A DNA stretch of 30,794 nt, taken from IMG/VR virus record IMGVR_UViG_3300048509_000003, positions 1-30,794 of that record; one strand, given 5' to 3'. The first letter of the stretch is position 1. Each line of letters starts with the position of its first letter. The translations under genes and the position numbers were made by a program. Source of the DNA: a virus. Positions 6,778 through 17,575 of the stretch are shown here, one piece after another. The notes beneath the pieces were generated by a model. That model saw only the letters and a list, made by a program, of their open reading frames with translations, was not told the origin of the DNA and searched no databases.

Positions 6778-9700
6778 ATGACTGAAAAAGAAAAGACAAC
6801 TCAAGAATTTATAAAAGAAACTTTATTACCTACTCAGTATAAAGTAGCTGATAATATTATTCAAAAAATGTTTCCTGAAAAGTATCGAGAGTATAGAAAA
6901 TTTGATGCTAAACTTGGAACAGAAACAATAGAAGGTGCTTTTGACATAGGAGCTACTATTGTTGATGCTGTAGTTCCTGAAAAACTTGACCCTAGTAGAC
7001 AAGAAAGAAGACAATCCCAACAAGACATTCTTAAAGATTTTTATAGTCATCTTTATGGAAAAGATATAATAACTTCAGAAAAAAAGTATGGTATAGATAC
7101 TGCTGTTGCAGAGCCTCTAGAAAGTTTTGGCTTAGATTTAGCAGGAGACATGGCTCAGTTAATTGTAGGAGGAGGCTTAGTTAAAAAGGGTTTTAAAAAA
7201 GCATTACCTAAAAGAAAACCAAAGCCTTTTGTTGAAACTTTAGTAGCTGCAGAAGTTGGTTCTCAAATAGCTTTTGACCCGTTAGAAGAATCTTTACTTG
7301 AAATGATAGCTGGAGCAGTACTTCCCGGAAATGACAAAGCTATTGATGATATAGAAAGCTATATTAAAGGAGATGAAGAAGACTCCCGTTTAAAAAATAG
7401 AATGCTTTTGTTTGGAGACGGGTTAGCAGGAGCAGGAGTGTTTCATTATGCTGGTAAAGGACTTAAAAACATTAAGTTAAAAGATAGATTTATTTCTTTG
7501 TTAAATAAAATAAGAAGTTCTGATGCAGATACTCAAAATAAGTTTATAGATATACTACAAAATAGTTCAAGTGAAAATGCTATTACAGGTAGGGTAGCTT
7601 TAAAGAATCGAAGAAAAGAAATAGAAGACGGTACAGTAAAAGACCTAGGAGATTTTGAAGCATTACAGCCTAGTAAAATGACTAGGTCTGAATTAGATTT
7701 ACAGTTTAATAAAAATCCTTTTATAAGAAAGTTAGAAACAATAAGAAAAAAATTGTTTACTAACAGAGGGAATAAAACTTTAAGAATGCAAGAAAAGTTT
7801 TTAAAAGGTGAAAACGTAAAAGAAATGTATCAAGATAAAATAGCCAACATTGGTTATAATCTTGAAAATATTTATCAAGAAATAACAGAGCAAGTTAAAA
7901 ATTCTAAAGGTTTAAAAACCCAAATTGATGAAGTATTATTTAAAGATGATAGACTACCTACAGTTATTACTAGTAAAAGATATAGTGCAGGTAGAAGTCA
8001 AAAACAAGCGTTTGAACAAAAATTAAAAAAACTTCCTAAAGAACTTCAAGGTCCTGTTAGAGAAGCAAGAGAACTACAAGATAGTTTAAGTTTAATGATG
8101 TTAGATACTGGCTATTTAACTAAAGCACAAAAGAAAATATATTTAGATAGCTTAGGTTTTTATGTTAGACGTTCTTATAAAATGTTTGAAGACCCTAACT
8201 ATGTACCGAACAAAACAGTTTTAAAAGATGCTGAAGATTACTTAGCTGAACAAGTAAAAAAAGAAGGGATTACAGACCCTGATGTAATTAAAGAAAGAGT
8301 AGAAGCACAGATAAAAGACTTTTCAGATATAAATGGAAGGAATAGTTTTGGTGCTAATCTTGAAAAATTTGATAAAATTAAAAAACAAATATTAATTGGA
8401 CGTAAAGAAATACCAAAAGAAATAAGAGCTTTCTTGGGTGAAATAGATGACCCTATTGAAAAGTTTGTACACTCTGCTACTAAACTAAGTAAGCTTGTTC
8501 AAGATGCGAAATTTTATGATGAAACTTTTGAAGATGGAATAGGTATATATTTTAGAAGAAACAAAGAAGGTATATTTAGAAATACTATTCCTGAAGGCTA
8601 CGGTAAATTGTCAGGTATGCACACTTCTAAAGAGCTACTACAGTACTTTAGTGTTCATAAAGATTTAAGTCAAAAAGCTTTAGAAGCAGAAAACTTAGGA
8701 GGTCAAATATATAGAAACTTGTTGCTACTAAAGGGAACATCACAAGCTGCTAAAACTGTTTGGTCTCATACAACTCATGTAAAGAACGTAGCTGGTGGTA
8801 TGCATATGTCATTAGCTAATGGTGTTAATGTTTTTGATGCTAAACAAACTTATGACATTATAAAAACTTTAAGAGCTAGAACAAGTGGAGATAAAGCATT
8901 ACAAGAATTCCATGAAGAACTTTCTGAGTTTGGTTTGTTAAACAAAGGAATTATTGCTAGAGATTTAAAAGGTTTAACAGATGATATAAGTAAAGTTAAA
9001 ACAGGTAATATTACCAAAGGTATTACAGGAGCTGCTGACTGGACATTTGAAAAAACAGGAATTAAAAAATTAGCTGAAAAAGCACAGAATGCTTACATAG
9101 CAGAAGATGACTTCTTTAAAATTAATATGTATATTAGAGAAGAAAAAAATCTAACTAAAATTAATAACATGTTACCTGATAACATGAAAAAGTCAGCTAG
9201 AGAAATTAAAGAAGACTCAGCTAGAATAGTTAGAGACGTATTACCTAACTACGATTTAGTTCCAGAGTATTTTAAAAGCGTAAGAAGATTTCCATTAGCA
9301 GGAAGATTCTTTTCTTTTATGTCAGAGTCAGTTAGAATATCTGCAGGAACATTAAGGAATGTCAGAGAAGACTTTTTTAAAGGTCAAGATTTAATTGAAC
9401 AAGGAGCTAAAGAAGCAGGTGAAGCTTATCAAAAGAAAGCTACACAACGCTTAGCTTCATTTAGTTTATTTGCAATAGGCGGAGGTAAAGTAGCCTCAGA
9501 AACTAGTCAAGCATTAAGTGGCTTAGGTCAAGATACTGTAGATGCAATTAAAGAATTTTTACCGGATTATATGCAAAACTCTAATATTATAGTTTCAGTA
9601 GGTGATGATGGTACTCCTATGGTTAGTAACTTAAGTTCTTGGGATGCTTATGATTATCCTAAAAAACCTTTTCAAATAATGATACCTAAAATATTTGATA

Positions 9701-11310
9701 AAAATATTAGTAATGAAGATTTTATGTCTGAATTATTATCTTCTTTAGTAACAGAAACAGTCAGTCCTTTTTTAGGAGAATCTATTATAGCAGAGCCTAT
9801 ATATGATTATGTTTTTGCAGGAGGAAGAGATAAAAATAATAGACTCATGAAATACAATTTTATGGGAACTACTTATCAATACAATGATACAGGCTCAGCC
9901 ACTGATAAAATAGAAAACTTACCAATATTGATGGGTAAATTAATGGAGTCTATAACTCCCGGAAGTATTGATAGACTCTTTGATTATACTAAAACTTTTG
10001 GTAAAGACCAAACAAAATATGGTCAAGATATTTATGAACTAGACCAGTTTATGAAATTTGCTACAGGCTGGGGAACATCTCCTTTAAATACAGAGTATCT
10101 TGAAAATGTTTTTAAATTTAAAAGCTCTGACTTTAGTAAAGAAAAAGATAACAGGTCTCGTAGACTATATAATGGACTAGGAGAAAAACTAGACTATGAT
10201 AAGTTTGTAAATAATTATATAAAAGAAAATAATGAATACTATAAAAATGTTTCTAAGTTTCATAAGTTAAATAAAGCTGCGGAAAAATTTAATATTAATA
10301 CATTACCCTTAATGAAAGAAGCAGGATTAAGTAAAATGGATAGAGTTAGTATTTATGCAGACCGCTTTGAACCTTTAGGACTAGGAGCAAACTTAAAAAA
10401 ACAAATTAGTAACGCAGATACAGAAGGTAAATATATAGATGTTATTCAATCTATAAATGACATAGATAATATGTATGGTAATTTTCCTTTAATGACAAGT
10501 CCTGAAAATTATAAAAAAGAAAAAGAAGAGTTGAGTGAGCTACGTTCTCTGTTAAGAGAAAACTACAAGACAGGTGGGATAGTTCCTAATGTACAAGAAG
10601 ACCCTGCAGATAGAGTAGACCCCTTTACAGGATTACCTTATTCAGAACAAATGGATAGATTAGGGTTTAGTAAAGGTGGAAATGTTCCTGAAGGAGCAGT
10701 TGAAATTTATGATGATGAAGGTTTAAAACCTGTGTTTCCTGTAGTAGAAGCTTTAGGAGGATTAGGAGTTCGAGGTCTTAAAGGTGCAATAGAAATTGCT
10801 GAACAGATAGTACAAAAATCTTCTATGCCTAAAGAAGTTATACATGGTAGTTCTGTAAAGGGTTTAAAAGAAATTAAGTCTGCTAATGCTATGGTACGTA
10901 AACCTAATGAAGGATTACAAAGTGGTATTTATACTTCTAAACGTGGAGGTATATCTGCTGATTATGGTTTTCAAGGAAAAGAATATCCTATAGATACTTC
11001 AGATATTTCATCTTTTAAAAACTTAGTAAGTATTGGTAAAGATAAAGTTATAAATTCTAAAAGACCTCCAAAAAAATTTAGAATATCTTTAGATAATGCT
11101 ATAAAAAATACTAGTTCTAAAAAAGAAGTTAATGAATTGACTCGTTTTAAAAATAGTTTAGGTAAAAAAAAATATATAAGTGATGTAGGTCCTACAGTTA
11201 GAAAATTTTTAGATGATAATAGTATAAAAGTTATTAAAACAAAAAATAGATTAGATGATAAACCAACTTATATTTTAATAGAAGATATGGTAAAAGTAAA
11301 AGGAAAATAA
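6778..11310 (+). CDS. Giant (1510 aa) putative ejected virion protein with C-terminal ADP-ribosyltransferase-like domain
   Basis: The largest gene in the window and last of the virion block. Residues 1-1260 are mostly helical and charged, with a few hydrophobic patches (for example 120-180 and ~895-910), as in internal virion proteins that enter the host. A linker at ~1264-1301 contains DPADRVDPFTGLPYSEQMDR followed by LGFSKGG. After it comes a separate domain whose layout matches polyvalent-protein ADP-ribosyltransferases: His1356 in VIHGSS, Tyr1385 in SGIYTSKRGG, then DYGF and a KEYPID strand. A candidate third catalytic acid is in the C-terminal strand ILIED. No lytic transglycosylase motif was seen. 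The virion role comes from context; the ART call rests on motif pattern only. Confidence 0.75.
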   Translation: MTEKEKTTQEFIKETLLPTQYKVADNIIQKMFPEKYREYRKFDAKLGTETIEGAFDIGATIVDAVVPEKLDPSRQERRQSQQDILKDFYSHLYGKDIITSEKKYGIDTAVAEPLESFGLDLAGDMAQLIVGGGLVKKGFKKALPKRKPKPFVETLVAAEVGSQIAFDPLEESLLEMIAGAVLPGNDKAIDDIESYIKGDEEDSRLKNRMLLFGDGLAGAGVFHYAGKGLKNIKLKDRFISLLNKIRSSDADTQNKFIDILQNSSSENAITGRVALKNRRKEIEDGTVKDLGDFEALQPSKMTRSELDLQFNKNPFIRKLETIRKKLFTNRGNKTLRMQEKFLKGENVKEMYQDKIANIGYNLENIYQEITEQVKNSKGLKTQIDEVLFKDDRLPTVITSKRYSAGRSQKQAFEQKLKKLPKELQGPVREARELQDSLSLMMLDTGYLTKAQKKIYLDSLGFYVRRSYKMFEDPNYVPNKTVLKDAEDYLAEQVKKEGITDPDVIKERVEAQIKDFSDINGRNSFGANLEKFDKIKKQILIGRKEIPKEIRAFLGEIDDPIEKFVHSATKLSKLVQDAKFYDETFEDGIGIYFRRNKEGIFRNTIPEGYGKLSGMHTSKELLQYFSVHKDLSQKALEAENLGGQIYRNLLLLKGTSQAAKTVWSHTTHVKNVAGGMHMSLANGVNVFDAKQTYDIIKTLRARTSGDKALQEFHEELSEFGLLNKGIIARDLKGLTDDISKVKTGNITKGITGAADWTFEKTGIKKLAEKAQNAYIAEDDFFKINMYIREEKNLTKINNMLPDNMKKSAREIKEDSARIVRDVLPNYDLVPEYFKSVRRFPLAGRFFSFMSESVRISAGTLRNVREDFFKGQDLIEQGAKEAGEAYQKKATQRLASFSLFAIGGGKVASETSQALSGLGQDTVDAIKEFLPDYMQNSNIIVSVGDDGTPMVSNLSSWDAYDYPKKPFQIMIPKIFDKNISNEDFMSELLSSLVTETVSPFLGESIIAEPIYDYVFAGGRDKNNRLMKYNFMGTTYQYNDTGSATDKIENLPILMGKLMESITPGSIDRLFDYTKTFGKDQTKYGQDIYELDQFMKFATGWGTSPLNTEYLENVFKFKSSDFSKEKDNRSRRLYNGLGEKLDYDKFVNNYIKENNEYYKNVSKFHKLNKAAEKFNINTLPLMKEAGLSKMDRVSIYADRFEPLGLGANLKKQISNADTEGKYIDVIQSINDIDNMYGNFPLMTSPENYKKEKEELSELRSLLRENYKTGGIVPNVQEDPADRVDPFTGLPYSEQMDRLGFSKGGNVPEGAVEIYDDEGLKPVFPVVEALGGLGVRGLKGAIEIAEQIVQKSSMPKEVIHGSSVKGLKEIKSANAMVRKPNEGLQSGIYTSKRGGISADYGFQGKEYPIDTSDISSFKNLVSIGKDKVINSKRPPKKFRISLDNAIKNTSSKKEVNELTRFKNSLGKKKYISDVGPTVRKFLDDNSIKVIKTKNRLDDKPTYILIEDMVKVKGK

Positions 11311-11311
11311 T

Positions 11312-11761
11312 ATGAACGTAGAACTATGCAAACAAGATATTAAAAGACACGAAGGCGAAGTCCTTGAAATCTATGAGGATAGCTTAGGCTATAAAACTCT
11401 AGGGATTGGACACCTCTGCCAACCAGAAGACCCAGAATATAAGTGGGAAGTAGGTACTAAAGTGTCTCAAGAAGTAGTAGATATGTACTACGAAAATGAT
11501 TTTGATAAACATTACAAAGAAGCTATACATGTCTTTGGTAGTGAGGAAGACTTTGAAAAGCTTCCCGAAGTAATACAAAGAGTATTGGTAAACATGTGTT
11601 TTAACCTCGGAGGCTCTAGGCTTTCTAAGTTTCGTAACATGTTAAAGGCTTGTAGAAACCATGACTGGAAAGAAATGTCTGTACAAATGGAAGATAGTCG
11701 TTGGTTTAATCAAGTAGGTGGACGTAGTAGAGAATTACAAATGATGGTATTAGGAGCTTGA
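11312..11761 (+). CDS. Endolysin, T4-type lysozyme (glycoside hydrolase 24)
   Basis: 149 residues, close to T4 lysozyme size. The catalytic triad is intact with T4 spacing: Glu14 in RHEG, Asp23 in IYEDSLGY and Thr29 in TLGIGHL, matching T4 Glu11, Asp20 and Thr26. It would cut the glycan strands of peptidoglycan. There is no signal peptide or anchor, so release through a holin is expected, and a 3TM holin gene follows directly. It also sits directly before the curli-like cassette. Confidence 0.93.
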   Translation: MNVELCKQDIKRHEGEVLEIYEDSLGYKTLGIGHLCQPEDPEYKWEVGTKVSQEVVDMYYENDFDKHYKEAIHVFGSEEDFEKLPEVIQRVLVNMCFNLGGSRLSKFRNMLKACRNHDWKEMSVQMEDSRWFNQVGGRSRELQMMVLGA

Positions 11762-11762
11762 A

Positions 11763-12236
11763 ATGAAAGGACTGTTAAAGAATATAGTTGGAGCTGTTGC
11801 ACCTACATTAGGAACTGCATTAGGCGGACCAATGGGAGGAATGGCAGCTAACATGATAGCCGATGTATTGGGCGTACCTAATACACCTAAAGCTATAGAA
11901 AAAGGAATAGCTGAAGCTACACCTGAACAAATGCTAGAGCTTAAAAAAGCTGAACAAGCTTTTGAAGTACAGATGAAAGAGCTTGATGTAGATGTATTTA
12001 AGCTAGAGGTAGCTGACGGACAAGACGCTAGAAATAAGTTCAGTAAAGACTGGACAGCCCGTATCATGGGTATAGCTGTTGTCGGTGGTTTCATGGGATA
12101 CATATTTCTTGTTACTCTACAACCACCTGAGCAGAACTCTGAAGCTCTTATAAACCTTGTACTAGGTTATCTTGGTGGTTTAGCAAGTGCTGTTATATCG
12201 TTTTACTTTGGAGCTTCTAACACACAGAAAGACTAA
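11763..12236 (+). CDS. Holin, GTA-type 3TM family
   Basis: 157 residues. The N-terminus is hydrophobic and Gly/Ala-rich (GAVAPTLGTALGGPMGG); an amphipathic acidic helix follows, then the family-typical DARNKFSKDWTARIMGI leading into two membrane segments (about 102-118 and 128-150). This matches the 'holin of 3TMs, for gene-transfer release' family. It would form the inner-membrane lesion that releases the lysozyme encoded just upstream. Its stop codon overlaps the next start (TAATG). Confidence 0.85.
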   Translation: MKGLLKNIVGAVAPTLGTALGGPMGGMAANMIADVLGVPNTPKAIEKGIAEATPEQMLELKKAEQAFEVQMKELDVDVFKLEVADGQDARNKFSKDWTARIMGIAVVGGFMGYIFLVTLQPPEQNSEALINLVLGYLGGLASAVISFYFGASNTQKD

Positions 12237-12586
12237 TGGATTCAGCAGTATCATTAATAACTGAACTGGGCTTTCCTATTGCAGCAGCACTTGGATTAGG
12301 TGCTTTTGTATGGAAGCTAATCAATAGAATTATTGATGGTATGGAAACTAAACTAGATACCTTAGACGATAAAGTACAAACAGCTTTAGATACTATGGAA
12401 GAACGAGTGTCTACTAAACTTGACAGTCAGTATGGTATTATAGTTAGTTTAATTGACAGAGTAAGGGCGTTAGATAATCAAAGCATTAGACAAGACGTAC
12501 TCTTAAAAACTTTACTAGGCGTACCAAACTTAGTAGACATAGATAAAATTGCAAAAGCAGATAGAGATGACCAAAGAAAAGACTAA
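12236..12586 (+). CDS. Single-pass membrane protein with coiled coil, possible holin-associated or i-spanin-like protein
   Basis: 116 residues. One membrane segment near the N-terminus (residues 10-27, ELGFPIAAALGLGAFVW) is followed by a long heptad-type helix (METKLDTLDDKVQTALDTME). Its ATG overlaps the holin stop, so translation is probably coupled. An N-terminal anchor plus a coiled coil next to the endolysin and holin fits an Rz-like i-spanin, or an antiholin or secondary holin. No Rz1-type small lipoprotein is seen. The only outer-membrane lipoprotein nearby is CsgG. Confidence 0.65.
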   Translation: MDSAVSLITELGFPIAAALGLGAFVWKLINRIIDGMETKLDTLDDKVQTALDTMEERVSTKLDSQYGIIVSLIDRVRALDNQSIRQDVLLKTLLGVPNLVDIDKIAKADRDDQRKD

Positions 12587-13136
12587 TAAAAAAATATTAC
12601 AAGTAGTTAATCTTTCTCCGAGCGAATCTTGGATAGAAAAAATTGTAGATGTACATCCTATGAAGCAGATTACAATTGCTTCTATAGTTCAAGTAGTTGT
12701 GTTTGGTTTAATGTTGTTAGCTTTTTGGGGTAACTCTAAAGTCTTTGCAGATGAAATGGTACACAAGTTTAAAAGTCCTAGCTTTAGTGGTATTAATTCA
12801 TCTTCACATTATCTTACAATCCAGAACCAAGAGTTCAATCGTAAAGCAGCTTTAAAAGCAGAGATAAAAGCACTTCAAGATGAAATAGAAAGAGACAAAG
12901 AGAACACAACACTTGCAAGGTTTATAAGGAACTTAGAGTCTAGAATATATGCACAGCTTTCTAGACAGCTTGTAGATAATTTGTTTGGTGAAACTCCTAG
13001 CGATAGTGGAGTACTAGAATTAGAAGGCAACAGAATAGAATATAGTGTTGTCGATGGAATAATAACTTTAAACATAACGGATAGTAATGGTAATACAACG
13101 ACTATATCTTTGCCTGTTGGCGATTTTTATTTCTAG
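12567..13136 (+). CDS. csgF: CsgF-like curli assembly protein
   Basis: In Gram-negative bacteria CsgF plugs the outer-membrane CsgG pore from outside and couples export to curli nucleation. The mature part here follows CsgF along its length: HKFKSPSFSGINSSS matches the FQFRNPNFGG-type N-terminus that binds CsgG; then comes the LARFIRNLESRIYAQLSRQL helix and the C-terminal strands YSVVDGIITLNITDSNGN. A hydrophobic signal segment ends at SKVFA before DEMVHKF. The start is uncertain: ATG 12567 overlaps the upstream gene and gives a 31-residue extra N-terminus, while ATG 12660 gives a classic signal peptide and a length nearer E. coli CsgF (138 aa). Its 3' end overlaps csgG by 50 nt. The match is clear to my reading, but no alignment was run. 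Confidence 0.85.
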   Translation: MTKEKTNKKILQVVNLSPSESWIEKIVDVHPMKQITIASIVQVVVFGLMLLAFWGNSKVFADEMVHKFKSPSFSGINSSSHYLTIQNQEFNRKAALKAEIKALQDEIERDKENTTLARFIRNLESRIYAQLSRQLVDNLFGETPSDSGVLELEGNRIEYSVVDGIITLNITDSNGNTTTISLPVGDFYF

Positions 13137-13941
13137 TTGTGCAGTTATAAGTCATAACGAAGATTTAGTATTATCAAAGAAGATACAATCTCCGGACATA
13201 TTAGAACTACAATCAGAAGAATTAAAGAATTTACCGGCAGCTTCAGTGATGCCAACCATAGCTATATACCCTAATAGCTTTAAAGATTTAACAGGGCAGA
13301 GAAGAAGTAACAGTACGTTTGCTTTATTTAGTACAGCTATTACACAAGCTCCGGAAGCTTTTCTTATAAGAGCCTTAAAGCATACTTCAGGTGGAAAGTT
13401 TTTTAGAGTTGTAGAAAGAGTAGGCTTGGATGACCTAACAAAAGAAAGACAACTTATTAGAAGTACTCGTAAAGAGTTTAAAGAAGATAACAAAATGAAA
13501 CCTTTGCTTTTTGCAGGGTTACTAGTTCAAGGTGGAGTGGTTAGTTACGAAGCTAACCTAAAGTCTGGAGGTGCTGGTGCTAGATACTTAGGAATAGGTA
13601 ATAGCAAACAGTACAGAGAAGATACAGTTACAATATCGTTAAGATTAATATCTGTATCAACTGGAGAAGTGTTAATGGAAACATTAGTTTCTAAAAGCAT
13701 TATATCCACAAGTATTTCTCAGGATATATTTCGTTTTATCGAACAGCAAACAGAGCTTGTAGAGATAGAGGGTGGTGTAGCTGAGAATGAGAGTGTTTCT
13801 ATAGCTTTGCAAAAGGCAATAGAAACGGGAGTATTAAATATTATTAACATAGGCATTGAGAGGGGCTATTGGAAATATGAACAAACTAAAATTAATGAGC
13901 CTAGTTGTGATGATGAATGCATCGCTGCTATACGGGGCTGA
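13087..13941 (+). CDS. csgG: CsgG-like curli secretion channel lipoprotein
   Basis: 284 residues, nearly the E. coli CsgG length (277). CsgG forms a nonameric 36-strand outer-membrane pore for curli subunits. The lipobox ISSC puts the lipidated Cys at residue 18. Family landmarks follow in order: FSTAITQAPEAFLIRALK, RVVERVGLDDLTKERQLIR, GGVVSYEANLKSGGAGARYL, GIG, LISVSTGEVL, FRFIEQQTELVEIEGG and AIETGVLNIINIGIERGYW. The pore constriction of E. coli (mature Tyr51, Asn55, Phe56) aligns by eye with Ser76, Leu80 and Phe81 here, so only the Phe is kept. The signal peptide is encoded in the 50-nt overlap with csgF. It ends with a Cys pair (SCDDEC) not typical of the family, and overlaps the curlin gene by 65 nt. 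Confidence 0.92.
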   Translation: MVIQRLYLCLLAIFISSCAVISHNEDLVLSKKIQSPDILELQSEELKNLPAASVMPTIAIYPNSFKDLTGQRRSNSTFALFSTAITQAPEAFLIRALKHTSGGKFFRVVERVGLDDLTKERQLIRSTRKEFKEDNKMKPLLFAGLLVQGGVVSYEANLKSGGAGARYLGIGNSKQYREDTVTISLRLISVSTGEVLMETLVSKSIISTSISQDIFRFIEQQTELVEIEGGVAENESVSIALQKAIETGVLNIINIGIERGYWKYEQTKINEPSCDDECIAAIRG

Positions 13942-14593
13942 TAACGAAATATACATTGACCAAACTGGTGATACAGCTAATATAAATTTAGAACAGTTAG
14001 GTTCTGCAAATATTATAGGTGGTTTAAATTCTGTTGCTGGAACTTTAACACCTTTAGATTTGGATGGTGGTACAATGACATTGGACATCAATCAAATTGG
14101 AGACACTAATAAATTCTTAGGAGATATTCTAGCTGATAACTTCACAGGGTTTTTTAACTTTGACGGAACTGGTAATAACTTTACTATCCAAGTAGACCCT
14201 ACTAACACATATGGAGCAGATGGTTCTGATGTTAATGTAGCTGTTACTGGAAGTAGTAATAACTTTACACTTGATTTAGCTACACTAGCTATGTCTAGTA
14301 ATACAGACTTAGACTGGATTATAAACGGTGATAGTAACACATTTGACTTTGATATTAACTACGATGGTGCTACTAACTACGTTGATGTAGATGGAGATAG
14401 CAACACAGTAAACTTTACAGGGAGTGGATATGCAGATGGGTACTTCTATCTTGACCAAACAGGAAACAGTAGAACATTCAACATCATACAGTCATCAACT
14501 TTGGCTTCTGATTGGTTGCAGATTAATTCTACTGGTAACAATGGTACTATCTGTGTCGTCCAAAACGATGGAGGAAGTACAGTCGGTTGCTAG
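13877..14593 (+). CDS. Secreted curlin-repeat (CsgA/CsgB-like) protein
   Basis: 238 residues from the ATG at 13877; a TTG 21 nt upstream is in frame but less likely. A signal peptide ends near LLYGA. The mature protein is a chain of beta-strand repeats with a G-D/N/S-x-N core, as in curlin: YIDQTGDTANINLEQLGSAN (26-45), then LDINQIGDTN, FDGTGNNFTI, VTGSSNNFTL, INGDSNTFDF, VDGDSNTVNF, LDQTGNSRTF and NSTGNNGTI. Only the first and seventh units keep the classic Gln-x-Gly; the middle ones are degenerate. It is very acidic (Asp-rich) and has two Cys (226 and 238) near the end, which could pair. It is the likely substrate of the CsgG pore encoded just before it. It could build a fibre, nucleate host curli or coat the cell. 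Confidence 0.8.
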   Translation: MNKLKLMSLVVMMNASLLYGADNEIYIDQTGDTANINLEQLGSANIIGGLNSVAGTLTPLDLDGGTMTLDINQIGDTNKFLGDILADNFTGFFNFDGTGNNFTIQVDPTNTYGADGSDVNVAVTGSSNNFTLDLATLAMSSNTDLDWIINGDSNTFDFDINYDGATNYVDVDGDSNTVNFTGSGYADGYFYLDQTGNSRTFNIIQSSTLASDWLQINSTGNNGTICVVQNDGGSTVGC

Positions 14594-15617
14594 TATTGGC
14601 AACATAACTGAACTAAACGGAACAGGTAGAGTCGTAAGAGATACTACCTACCAAGCCTCTCTATCTTTAGATATAAACAGCTACGACAATGTCCAAACTT
14701 CTAACGGGAGATTGGGCATTACTTTTTTAGACGATAGTCAAGTTAGACTTACTGAGCATTCAGAGTTAATAATAGACGAGTTTATCTATGACCCAGACCC
14801 GTCTAAGTCTAAGATGGCTTTACAGTTTGCTAGTGGTACTGCAAGGTTTATCACTGGTAAGTTAGCTACTATAGATAAAGAAAATATATCTATACAAACT
14901 CCTAGTGCTACGATAGGTATTCGTGGTACAGACTTTACAGTTACTGTAGATGAATTAGGTAGGAGTCTAGTCATATTATTACCAGACGATGATGGTCTTC
15001 CAAGTGGAGAGATTGTTGTCGCTACAGCTATGGGACAGGTAACACTTAACAAACCTTACCAAGCTACTACAGTTTCAATGTACGAGACTGAACCAACCAA
15101 ACCCGTTATCCTTGACTTAACCCTTGAGTTAATTGATAACATGTTAATAGTAAATCAACCAAAGGAAATAGAACAAGAAGATGAAGGACAAGATGGAAGT
15201 AGCGTTTCTAATATTCTTGATGTTGACTTCCTTGATTTCTCTGATTTAGAAATAGATTATCTTGCAGATGATGAACTAGAGTTTACAGAGTTAGATATAA
15301 ATTATCTTGATGTAAACTTTCTAGAAGATTTACTAAACATTATAGAAGACGTAAATGAGCTAGACAATACTGAATCACTTTTAAGAACTGATGTAGATTT
15401 AAAAGGAACTCAAGTAGGCTTTGATGCTAACACACAAATCAATACGTTCTTAGCTGATAACCTTATAACGTTTTACAAATCTTTAGAAGACACCGTAAGA
15501 CTAGACTTAGATAGGTCGAACGCTTATACAGTTATCATGATTCAAAATGGTAAGAGTACACAAGTCATTGTCAACGGTGGTGGAGACTCTACCATAAAAA
15601 TAACGCAAGGAGATTAA
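14430..15617 (+). CDS. FecR-domain protein paired with CHASE2 cyclase
   Basis: The FecR domain is clear: SIGNITELNGTGRVVRD, then SNGRLGITFLDDSQVRLTEH, FASGTARFITGKLA and the signature ATIGIRGTDF. FecR domains are periplasmic sensor or scaffold modules, and in bacteria FecR proteins are often encoded next to CHASE2 cyclases, as here (next gene 1 nt away). The C-terminal half is a highly acidic stretch with repeated D-x-D-F-L-D type units, then a short folded tail. The start is unsettled. ATG 14430 has a good ribosome binding site (AGGGAG) and adds a hydrophobic segment (LILLVTMVLSV), but overlaps the curlin gene by 164 nt. ATG 14541 and ATG 14568 shorten the overlap but remove any signal sequence. 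A ribosomal frameshift from the curlin gene is also possible. Confidence 0.85.
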   Translation: MQMGTSILTKQETVEHSTSYSHQLWLLIGCRLILLVTMVLSVSSKTMEEVQSVASIGNITELNGTGRVVRDTTYQASLSLDINSYDNVQTSNGRLGITFLDDSQVRLTEHSELIIDEFIYDPDPSKSKMALQFASGTARFITGKLATIDKENISIQTPSATIGIRGTDFTVTVDELGRSLVILLPDDDGLPSGEIVVATAMGQVTLNKPYQATTVSMYETEPTKPVILDLTLELIDNMLIVNQPKEIEQEDEGQDGSSVSNILDVDFLDFSDLEIDYLADDELEFTELDINYLDVNFLEDLLNIIEDVNELDNTESLLRTDVDLKGTQVGFDANTQINTFLADNLITFYKSLEDTVRLDLDRSNAYTVIMIQNGKSTQVIVNGGGDSTIKITQGD

Positions 15618-15618
15618 C

Positions 15619-17349
15619 ATGAAGTGGTCAACAATACTATTAGCTTTACTAACTTTACCTTTGCTTTTTAACGCAGTCCCATTAGAAGTCTTGAGATTAA
15701 AAACTTTTGATGCTCTTGTGCCTGAACAAAACGCTACAGGACACTTTACAATCCTTAACATTACCGAAGAAGACCTAGACAATATGGGAGGATATCCTCT
15801 ACCTCGTCAAGACTTAGCTAAGATACACAAAGACATTATGGATGCAGGAGCTTACGGAGTTGGATGGGTAATGCTGTTCCCACATGCGGATAGAATGGGT
15901 GGTGATGGTGAGTTTGCTTTAGAGCTTTCTAAGTCTGCAAGTGTTATAGCTATGCCAGAAGTAAACAACAATAACTATCCAAAGACAGTTGGTACAGTTA
16001 TCAAAGGACCAATAGTTTCTTTACCAAAAGCTCAAGGATTTTTAGAAAACATAGAACCTTTAAAACAGTCAGCTAGTCAAGGTGCTATTTCTGCACCAGT
16101 AGATGTAGATAATTTAGTAAGGCGTATACCTTTACTACAGCAAACAAACAATGGGTGGGTCGCTTCGTTTGGAACGGAAGTTTTAAAAATACTAGGAGGT
16201 GGTCGAACTTATCAGATTGTCACAAATCTGAACGGAATAGAACAGGTTAGAGTGAGAGGCATTCCACCCATTGCCACAGATAGTCTAGGTCGTAAATGGA
16301 TTAGTTGGGTTGATACACCACAGACTACACTAGCTGAGATGGATGTTGAATCTACATTTGTTTTTGTAGGATTTACAGCTAAAGGAATATCACCACAACT
16401 AGCAACACCTGTCGGGCTACTAGAGCCTCATAAGATTCAAGCAGCTTTATCAGAAAGTATGTTAATGGATACACCACAGATACCCGACTATAGATTGTTT
16501 GTAGAACTTTTAATATTATTATCCTGTGGTTTTCTCACAGCTCTTCTAATAGCACGTTTAGGTATTACATGGGGCATAGCGTCAGTTGGTGTTTTAATGT
16601 CAGGAGTAGGCTACTTTGGATATAGTGTCATACAAAATAATATATTGATTGATGTTACATGGAGTATGACAAGTATGACACTTATAGCTACTTTACAATT
16701 CTATCTAAACTTTAGAACACAGTTCAAGCTTAGACAACAAATTAAGAAACAGTTTGAACATTACCTTGACCCAAGACAAGTCAAACAACTCCAAGATAAT
16801 CCTGAGCTTTTGAAGTTAGGTGGAGATAGAAGACGTTGTACGTTTTTATTTACAGACGTTAGAGGCTTTACAAGTTTATCAGAGACTTTAGAACCCGAAC
16901 AAGTTACAGAGATAATGAACAAAGCATTAACCATACAAGCTAATGCAGTAAAAGAATATGGTGGGATGGTAGATAAATATATTGGAGATGCAATGATGGC
17001 TATCTTTAATGCACCTATAGACCTTGAAGACCATGAGAATAAAGCAATCCAAACAGCGTTACGAATACACCGAGATATGGAAGAAGCCAACCTAGGAATA
17101 GAGATAGGCATCGGCATAAATACAGGAGAGGCAGTGATAGGTAATATGGGAAGTGATACAAGATTTGATTACTCTGCGATTGGTGATGCTGTTAATCTAG
17201 CGGCTAGGCTAGAGAGTTCTACTAAAGAGGTTGGTAAAGATATTGTTATAGGATATGAAACAATTAAGAGCTACAAAGGTAAGTCTGTAACTCTTAAATC
17301 TATTTATGTTAAAGGTAAAGAAAAGCCTATAAAAATATACACTATTTAA
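15619..17349 (+). CDS. CHASE2-domain class III adenylate cyclase, membrane bound
   Basis: 576 residues. An N-terminal membrane segment (4-20) is followed by a periplasmic CHASE2 sensor domain (~21-290), three more membrane segments (~292-311, 316-337, 343-363), a linker helix with HYLDPRQVKQLQ and a class III cyclase domain (405-576). Catalytic residues all appear present: metal Asp413 (FTDVRGF) and Asp457 (YIGDAMMA), adenine-selecting Lys453 and Asp517 (FDYSAIGD), and transition-state Asn526 and Arg530 (NLAARLE). The Lys/Asp pair points to ATP rather than GTP, so the product should be cAMP. The 5' neighbour encodes a FecR protein, the usual partner. Its 3' end overlaps the opposite-strand gene by 8 bp. 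Full-length sensor cyclases are not standard phage genes. Confidence 0.93.
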   Translation: MKWSTILLALLTLPLLFNAVPLEVLRLKTFDALVPEQNATGHFTILNITEEDLDNMGGYPLPRQDLAKIHKDIMDAGAYGVGWVMLFPHADRMGGDGEFALELSKSASVIAMPEVNNNNYPKTVGTVIKGPIVSLPKAQGFLENIEPLKQSASQGAISAPVDVDNLVRRIPLLQQTNNGWVASFGTEVLKILGGGRTYQIVTNLNGIEQVRVRGIPPIATDSLGRKWISWVDTPQTTLAEMDVESTFVFVGFTAKGISPQLATPVGLLEPHKIQAALSESMLMDTPQIPDYRLFVELLILLSCGFLTALLIARLGITWGIASVGVLMSGVGYFGYSVIQNNILIDVTWSMTSMTLIATLQFYLNFRTQFKLRQQIKKQFEHYLDPRQVKQLQDNPELLKLGGDRRRCTFLFTDVRGFTSLSETLEPEQVTEIMNKALTIQANAVKEYGGMVDKYIGDAMMAIFNAPIDLEDHENKAIQTALRIHRDMEEANLGIEIGIGINTGEAVIGNMGSDTRFDYSAIGDAVNLAARLESSTKEVGKDIVIGYETIKSYKGKSVTLKSIYVKGKEKPIKIYTI

Positions 17350-17575
17350 AATCTTTCATTATCCTTGCATTTAAATGAGTTTCTATATAACTATGTATGC
17401 TATCTAACTTAGTGGTCGCTTCTCTTAGAATAGTTTTTAAATTAATAAATTCTTCTGTAGTTAAAAACTTTTCCAAGCTAGAGATGTCTGTTGTTGTTCT
17501 TTCTGTTACAAGCTTACCGTACCTATCATACAGAAGTTTATAGCTTATTAATGTAGCTTCTTTTCTTTTACTCAT
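17342..17575 (-). CDS. Small hypothetical protein at end of leftward operon
   Basis: 77 residues, starting in an ATGA overlap with the nrdB stop, so probably translated with it. Charged and helical, with no Cys pair, so it is not a glutaredoxin or thioredoxin although it follows ribonucleotide reductase. Its stop lies inside the convergent cyclase gene. No family recognised. Confidence 0.6.
   Translation of the reverse strand: MSKRKEATLISYKLLYDRYGKLVTERTTTDISSLEKFLTTEEFINLKTILREATTKLDSIHSYIETHLNARIMKDFK

Follow-up and report, generated by a model that had tools for sequence, protein, structure and literature searches.

The window analysed here, the whole 30,794-nucleotide stretch of a linear IMG/VR virus record (30.8 kb; G000), carries a curli-type secretion cluster in which csgF, csgG, a curlin-like gene, fecR and the gene for a CHASE2 cyclase occupy 12567-17349 on the + strand as an overlapping late-strand unit. 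Adjacent reading frames overlap or are parted by gaps of one or two bases. The initial annotation had read the five genes as a single unit, and the arrangement of the frames supports this, but the unit begins one gene further upstream, with a small membrane/coiled-coil gene, so that the module has six genes (Table 1). We tentatively propose, giving it a little less than an even chance, that the module is a minimal phage curli exporter whose FecR–CHASE2 pair monitors export.

Table 1. Genes of the curli-type module and its flanks in the window.
Feature	Coordinates	Strand	Evidence or remark
Phage lysozyme, lysis gene (flank)	11312..11761	+	PF00959, 6e-9
Holin-like protein with three transmembrane (TM) segments, general lysis gene (flank)	11763..12236	+	phrog_1544, 3.5e-25; homologues in 135 phage records
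Small one-TM coiled-coil (YvrJ-like) protein, first module gene	12236..12586	+	Constant position before csgF
csgF	12567..13136	+	PF10614, 1.7e-17; signal peptide, then N-terminus FKSPSFSG
csgG, outer-membrane lipoprotein pore	13087..13941	+	PF03783, 3.5e-48; E. coli CsgG structures
Curlin-like secreted repeat protein, candidate substrate	13877..14593	+	Homology, position, GxxN repeats
FecR-domain protein	14508..15617	+	PF04773, 1.3e-11; start uncertain, 14424-14541
CHASE2 class III nucleotide cyclase	15619..17349	+	PF05226, 4e-24; PF00211 (Guanylate_cyc), 1.2e-19
Convergent 77-amino-acid gene opening the replication/nucleotide block (boundary)	17342..17575	-	phrog_27180, 1.2e-10

The identities first assigned to the genes are borne out by Pfam matches for CsgF, CsgG, FecR, CHASE2 and the cyclase domain at the expected positions, and PHROGs holds viral families for CsgF, CsgG, FecR and the cyclase (phrog_35372, phrog_20175, phrog_37870 and phrog_35576). 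CsgG matches solved structures, E. coli CsgG 3x2r among them (E 1.7e-63), and its lipobox Cys18 is nearly invariant. The csgF gene is read from ATG 12567, with TTG 12549 and ATG 12660 as alternatives, and its product has an N-terminus of the CsgG-binding type, FK[SN]PSF[SN]G being kept in relatives. No match to CsgE was found among the scanned window proteins. The third product is homologous to gp016 of the SAR11 phage HTVC008M, annotated as "curlin minor subunit CsgB" (about 29% identity), and is about 31% identical to curlins of Caulobacteraceae, one of which scores PF07012. It contains nine GxxN repeats where chance would give 3.5 (P 0.002). A stricter pattern, fitted post hoc to this same sequence, occurs six times against 0.17 expected. 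The protein has a signal peptide and a Cys pair at the C-terminus, and is predicted to be secreted. The curlin call is thus carried by homology, position and the excess of repeats rather than by a Pfam match. In gene content, the set amounts to a minimal but complete exporter that brings a candidate substrate of its own.

Three starts are possible for fecR: CTG 14508, to which the ATG codons of related genes align, GTG 14424 and ATG 14541. Its product begins with a signal peptide, followed by the FecR beta domain, an acidic disordered linker and a beta C-terminal tail. The AlphaFold2 (AF2) model reaches a pLDDT (predicted local distance difference test) score of about 70-84 in the domain only, and Foldseek matched this domain to the periplasmic signalling domain of PupR (E 8e-4, probability 1.00); a sequence search of solved structures returned nothing useful. 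There is no anti-sigma N-terminus and no TM helix besides the signal peptide, no lipobox or membrane anchor was seen by eye, and neither a sigma factor nor a FecA-like gene was matched among the scanned window proteins. With nothing but a signal peptide ahead of the domain, and no partner sigma factor matched among those proteins, this is very probably not an iron regulator of the FecI/FecR kind.

The motif [IV]x[IVC]xQ lies within three residues of the C-terminus in 120 of 120 complete phage FecR copies and in both Caulobacteraceae copies recovered here, as against 1 of 29 FecR proteins that are not part of a curli cluster. It persists between proteins just 34-41% identical. The same terminal motif is present in 21 of 71 bacterial curlins versus 17 of 703 background open reading frames (odds ratio 17), and the curlins that end in it include CsgB-type proteins (ending AIRVTQR). 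Judged by this motif, the FecR tail appears to resemble the C-terminal strand of CsgB and other curlins. The earlier suggestion that FecR acts as a sensor is accordingly refined: a curlin-like C-terminal strand is present, and the anti-sigma architecture of FecR regulators is not.

The cyclase retains the metal-binding residues D413 and D457 as well as K453, N526 and R530, and its catalytic domain matches adenylate cyclase structures (e.g., CyaB 3r5g, E 1.5e-50). Nine of the ten cyclase sequences compared retain the main catalytic residues; that of the phage Melnitz departs at N526. From these residues, the enzyme looks active. The cyclase of the relative L070 (8468-10312) shares 70% identity with that of the window in its CHASE2 half and 47% in its catalytic half, the latter being 63% identical to that of HTVC008M; likewise, the cyclase of L071 (4919-6682) is 86% identical to that of L069 in CHASE2 and 47% in the catalytic part. 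To judge by these identities, the catalytic half is exchanged in L070 and L071 while the CHASE2 sensor stayed, and the catalytic residues are kept even where the domain was swapped beneath a kept sensor. A class III cyclase above the cut-off was found in 2 of 99 Pelagibacteraceae genomes, both times inside phage csg clusters.

The small gene that opens the module belongs to a YvrJ-like family of 92-116 amino acids with one predicted TM segment (read by eye) and a coiled coil. In all 134 testable loci, a member lies directly upstream of csgF (one copy in 124, two copies in 10), and tblastn among phage isolates finds the family only in the curli-bearing HTVC008M and Melnitz. That it is a general lysis gene was considered and rejected, for it has no homologue in curli-free phage isolates, unlike the three-TM holin-like gene beside it. 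We infer that it genuinely belongs to the module. Wittmers et al. 2022 (PMC9599517) described the cluster as preceded by "a histidine kinase, sometimes two", and the one-or-two copy pattern of the YvrJ-like gene agrees with that description. Pfam detects no kinase domain in the YvrJ-like proteins, and the gene ahead of csgF in the window has no histidine kinase domain. Matched by position and by the published description, the YvrJ-like gene is probably the "histidine kinase" of these authors.

A CsgG scan of IMG/VR gave 340 relatives, of which 80 were kept for locus comparison; a second scan gave at least 582. The order csgF-csgG-curlin-fecR-cyclase is kept in all 80 wherever the contig is long enough. 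All five genes were sought in these other phage contigs and are present in 57, and a curlin gene is found in every contig that holds both csgG and fecR. Compared with eight relatives, the ratios of nonsynonymous to synonymous substitution (dN/dS) for csgF, csgG, the curlin-like gene, fecR and the cyclase gene are about 0.02-0.56, mostly 0.1-0.2, far below 1 in nearly all comparisons; these five genes are under purifying selection. Two relatives are mosaics: in L002, csgG is 99% identical to that of the window and the YvrJ-like gene 38%, and in L019, the curlin-like gene and fecR are 99% identical and the cyclase gene 84%. Such patterns suggest recombination inside the module. In 13 of 104 loci, fecR is separated from the cyclase gene by an additional stretch or gene; in L086, a C-5 cytosine methylase gene (1652-2854, 7.9e-43) occupies this place.

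The context is that of a phage, as first described, with lysozyme and holin-like genes upstream and a nucleotide and replication block downstream, in the convergent order 77-amino-acid gene, nrdB, nrdA, T7-like endonuclease, polA and primase-helicase. Seventeen window reading frames match the SAR11 podovirus HTVC115P and one matches HTVC027P; PolA is 52% identical to that of HTVC115P and 25% identical, over 219 residues, to that of HTVC027P. In HTVC115P, the same block (polA, endonuclease, nrdA, nrdB and a small gene) converges on the structural block, and the 77-amino-acid gene is the same neighbour of nrdB; no csg genes were found at the corresponding junction. This likeness makes a SAR11 host probable. 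Since the window phage is HTVC115P-like, the module here, placed where the late and replication blocks meet, belongs to a different lineage from the HTVC023P type reported by Wittmers et al., and the phage adds another podovirus lineage to the known carriers of the curli module. In the HTVC023P-like relatives L069, L074 and L079, the holin-like gene is placed after the cyclase gene. Upstream of the lysozyme gene, 6778-11310 encodes a 1510-amino-acid protein that is very variable among relatives and has no significant Pfam match. A promoter scan gave 22 sites versus 24.5 in shuffled sequences, with no excess, and terminator-like sites numbered 6 versus 2.5; no such site was used as evidence.

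When GTDB genomes were searched with a FecR profile, they yielded two Caulobacteraceae contigs from metagenome-assembled genomes (MAGs), L090 and L091, with the operon csgF-csgG-curlin-curlin-fecR-CHASE2 cyclase flanked by glycosyltransferase, S9 peptidase and TonB receptor genes. In a CsgG tree, the phages and these two Caulobacteraceae form one clade (SH-aLRT, the Shimodaira–Hasegawa-like approximate likelihood ratio test, 99), apart from 38 other bacterial CsgG; the long branches leave the direction of transfer open. Neither fecR nor a cyclase gene lies near csg in any of 38 sampled ordinary Pseudomonadota curli loci, and such operons were therefore rejected as the source of these two genes. 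The Caulobacteraceae operon means that fecR and a cyclase gene do occur in a bacterial curli operon, though rarely, contrary to the published statement that they are absent (Wittmers et al. 2022, PMC9599517). FecR–CHASE2 neighbours were also found away from curli. Other GTDB matches, in MAGs of Neomarinimicrobiota, Pelagibacter MED605, Maricaulis and Flavobacteriaceae, are phage-like and look like phage contigs in bins; L086, L087, L088, L089, L092, L307 and L310 are phage-like csg contigs binned in bacterial MAGs. Phage csg contigs in such bins would yield false host curli or cyclase calls. A 1.5 kb record of Salmonella phage S.Kent 1-2-1 (OR851715.1), with a CsgG 39% identical to that of the window, is probably host DNA.

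The module is not, as the initial annotation supposed, undescribed. Phage csgF and csgG were reported by Zaragoza-Solas 2020 (PMC7029224), who proposed sibling capture, and by Buchholz 2022 (PMC9004378), who proposed a lysis pore; a transcriptome paper (PMC12753301) has nothing on curli. According to Wittmers et al., nine HTVC023P-type genomes, as well as pelagimyophages, carry the CsgF-CsgG-CsgA/B-FecR-adenylate cyclase cluster without CsgE, and the cluster is expressed in Pacific metatranscriptomes. The window shares with their module the gene order with one curlin, the small gene or genes just before csgF, and the absence of CsgE, CsgC and CsgD; it differs from their HTVC023P-type and myovirus carriers in its HTVC115P-like backbone and the convergent late/nrdB junction, in lacking a second curlin and in having a preceding gene that is not a histidine kinase. 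The SAR11 and OM43 myophages HTVC008M (gp014-gp019) and Melnitz (gp99-gp104) share the order, the CsgF N-terminus, the FecR tail and the CHASE2 cyclase, with 32-47% identity to the window for CsgG, FecR and the cyclase, but in them fecR is followed by a second curlin gene before the cyclase gene. In HTVC008M, this gene (gp018, L082:6639-7961) encodes a PA14 domain (2.7e-6) and curlin repeats, possibly a sugar-binding fibre adhesin. The Caulobacteraceae operon likewise agrees in order, FecR tail and CsgG clade and differs in its two curlins, lack of a YvrJ-like gene and flanks. Compared with E. coli curli (csgBAC-csgDEFG), the window retains the CsgG pore and CsgF, lacks CsgE, CsgC and CsgD, has a divergent substrate, and adds FecR and the cyclase. 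Of the FecIRA regulator, only the FecR periplasmic domain is seen in the window; the cytoplasmic anti-sigma part, the TM helix and the extracytoplasmic function (ECF) sigma partner are not. The cyclase has the parts of a CHASE2 class III adenylate cyclase: CHASE2 and the metal, substrate and transition-state residues.

In the mechanism that we favour, the infected cell would gain a minimal curli-type exporter consisting of the CsgG pore, a CsgF collar and a curlin-like substrate, with no CsgE. The FecR protein would be periplasmic. Its beta domain would lie close to the cyclase's CHASE2 sensor, and its curlin-like tail would bind the CsgF/curlin assembly or the export channel. Once the tail was taken up by export or fibre assembly, the contact between FecR domain and CHASE2 would change and, with it, cyclic-nucleotide synthesis; the contact, the function of the tail and the direction of the signal are all conjectural. 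The FecR–CHASE2 neighbours found away from curli, together with three precedents, lead us to favour a FecR that touches the curlin assembly by its tail and CHASE2 by its domain. In BiofilmReg operons (PMC5192318), a periplasmic FecR stands beside CHASE2, there with a histidine kinase output and no curli. In Sinorhizobium, the outer-membrane barrel NsrA feeds CHASE2 cyclases (PMC13001267), again without curli, and with Clr, of the CRP family, as reader. In E. coli, curli assemble in the order CsgG-CsgF-CsgB-CsgA, with CsgB linking CsgF to CsgA (PMC6957492). The PupR-type cell-surface-signalling domain, the fold match of FecR, also reads an outer-membrane transporter. Candidate benefits to the phage are aggregation or "sibling capture", the blocking of rival phages, or uptake through the pore.

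Several observations weigh against this proposal. The curlin-like protein has no Pfam match up to E = 0.1, and its AF2 model is of low pLDDT, with no fold match at E <= 0.001. The FecR tail is short and modelled with low confidence, and since the 120 copies are homologous, their count does not represent 120 independent events. Clumping was not seen in Melnitz infections (PMC9004378). A cyclic nucleotide monophosphate (cNMP)-binding domain was found in 0 of 17 phage records and in only 4 of 99 Pelagibacteraceae genomes, which leaves the cyclic AMP (cAMP) step without an identified reader; among the genomic matches, the N-terminal cysteines in G971 resemble those of FNR, and in G003 and G998 the domain is part of proteins of 870-1002 amino acids. 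The initial annotation's view that the module raises cAMP is thus chemically plausible on the side of synthesis, the catalytic residues all being present, and has no identified target on the side of reception.

The main rival to the sensor model, which we consider possible and distinctly less probable, is that FecR is a structural, CsgB-like nucleator or anchor whose strand templates the fibre and whose beta domain keeps it attached to the cell, the cyclase being separate and loosely linked. The resemblance of the FecR tail to CsgB C-termini speaks for it, as do the single curlin gene of the window, which leaves no obvious CsgB, and the place of CsgB between CsgF and CsgA in E. coli (PMC6957492). 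However, FecR–CHASE2 pairs recur without curli (PMC5192318), and FecR carries only half a repeat, with no amyloid core and no lipobox or anchor visible by eye. The two readings are not exclusive. Rather unlikely, in our estimation, is a CsgGF pore repurposed for lysis timing or small-molecule uptake, with a curlin-like protein that forms no fibre (Buchholz et al. 2022; Zaragoza-Solas et al. 2020). The module does adjoin lysozyme and holin-like genes, it lies between lysis genes in HTVC023P-type relatives, and the lack of clumping in Melnitz infections would fit; nevertheless, a substrate gene under purifying selection is present in every locus, the CsgF N-terminus is kept, a three-TM holin and a lysozyme are already there, myophages have the module away from such lysis genes, and the annotation of Melnitz itself lists two curlin-repeat genes. 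As suggested by Wittmers et al. 2022, FecR could be an iron-dependent regulator, or the cyclase could drive csg transcription via cAMP and CsgD-like control, or both; the FecR Pfam match favours this, but since FecR has no anti-sigma N-terminus or TM helix beyond its signal peptide, no sigma factor or FecA-like gene was matched among the scanned window proteins, and cNMP-binding domains are absent from the 17 phage records and scarce in the host family, we think it very improbable. Finally, that an assembly chimera joined phage and bacterial DNA near 12560 or 17345 is rejected despite the bacterial ancestry of the csg, fecR and cyclase genes: among the 80 related contigs, the upstream junction is crossed by 77 and the downstream junction by 33, with 33 crossing both on a single contig, and the same cluster is found in the isolates HTVC008M and Melnitz.

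The cluster is present in hundreds of IMG/VR contigs of SAR11-type phages, and published accounts disagree on what it does. Our analysis corrects the literature on two points, the label "histidine kinase" and the absence of FecR and cyclase from bacterial curli operons, and brings out features that are directly testable: the curlin-like FecR tail, a cyclase for which the likely host offers no known reader, and the identically ordered operon in bacteria. In a more general form, which we think possible but less likely than not, the pair would be a second-messenger gauge for type VIII secretion, in which a FecR with a curlin-type strand reports amyloid export to a CHASE2 cyclase in phages and at least one bacterial lineage. 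If it is true that FecR–CHASE2 monitors amyloid export, this would be a new coupling of secretion to second-messenger synthesis.

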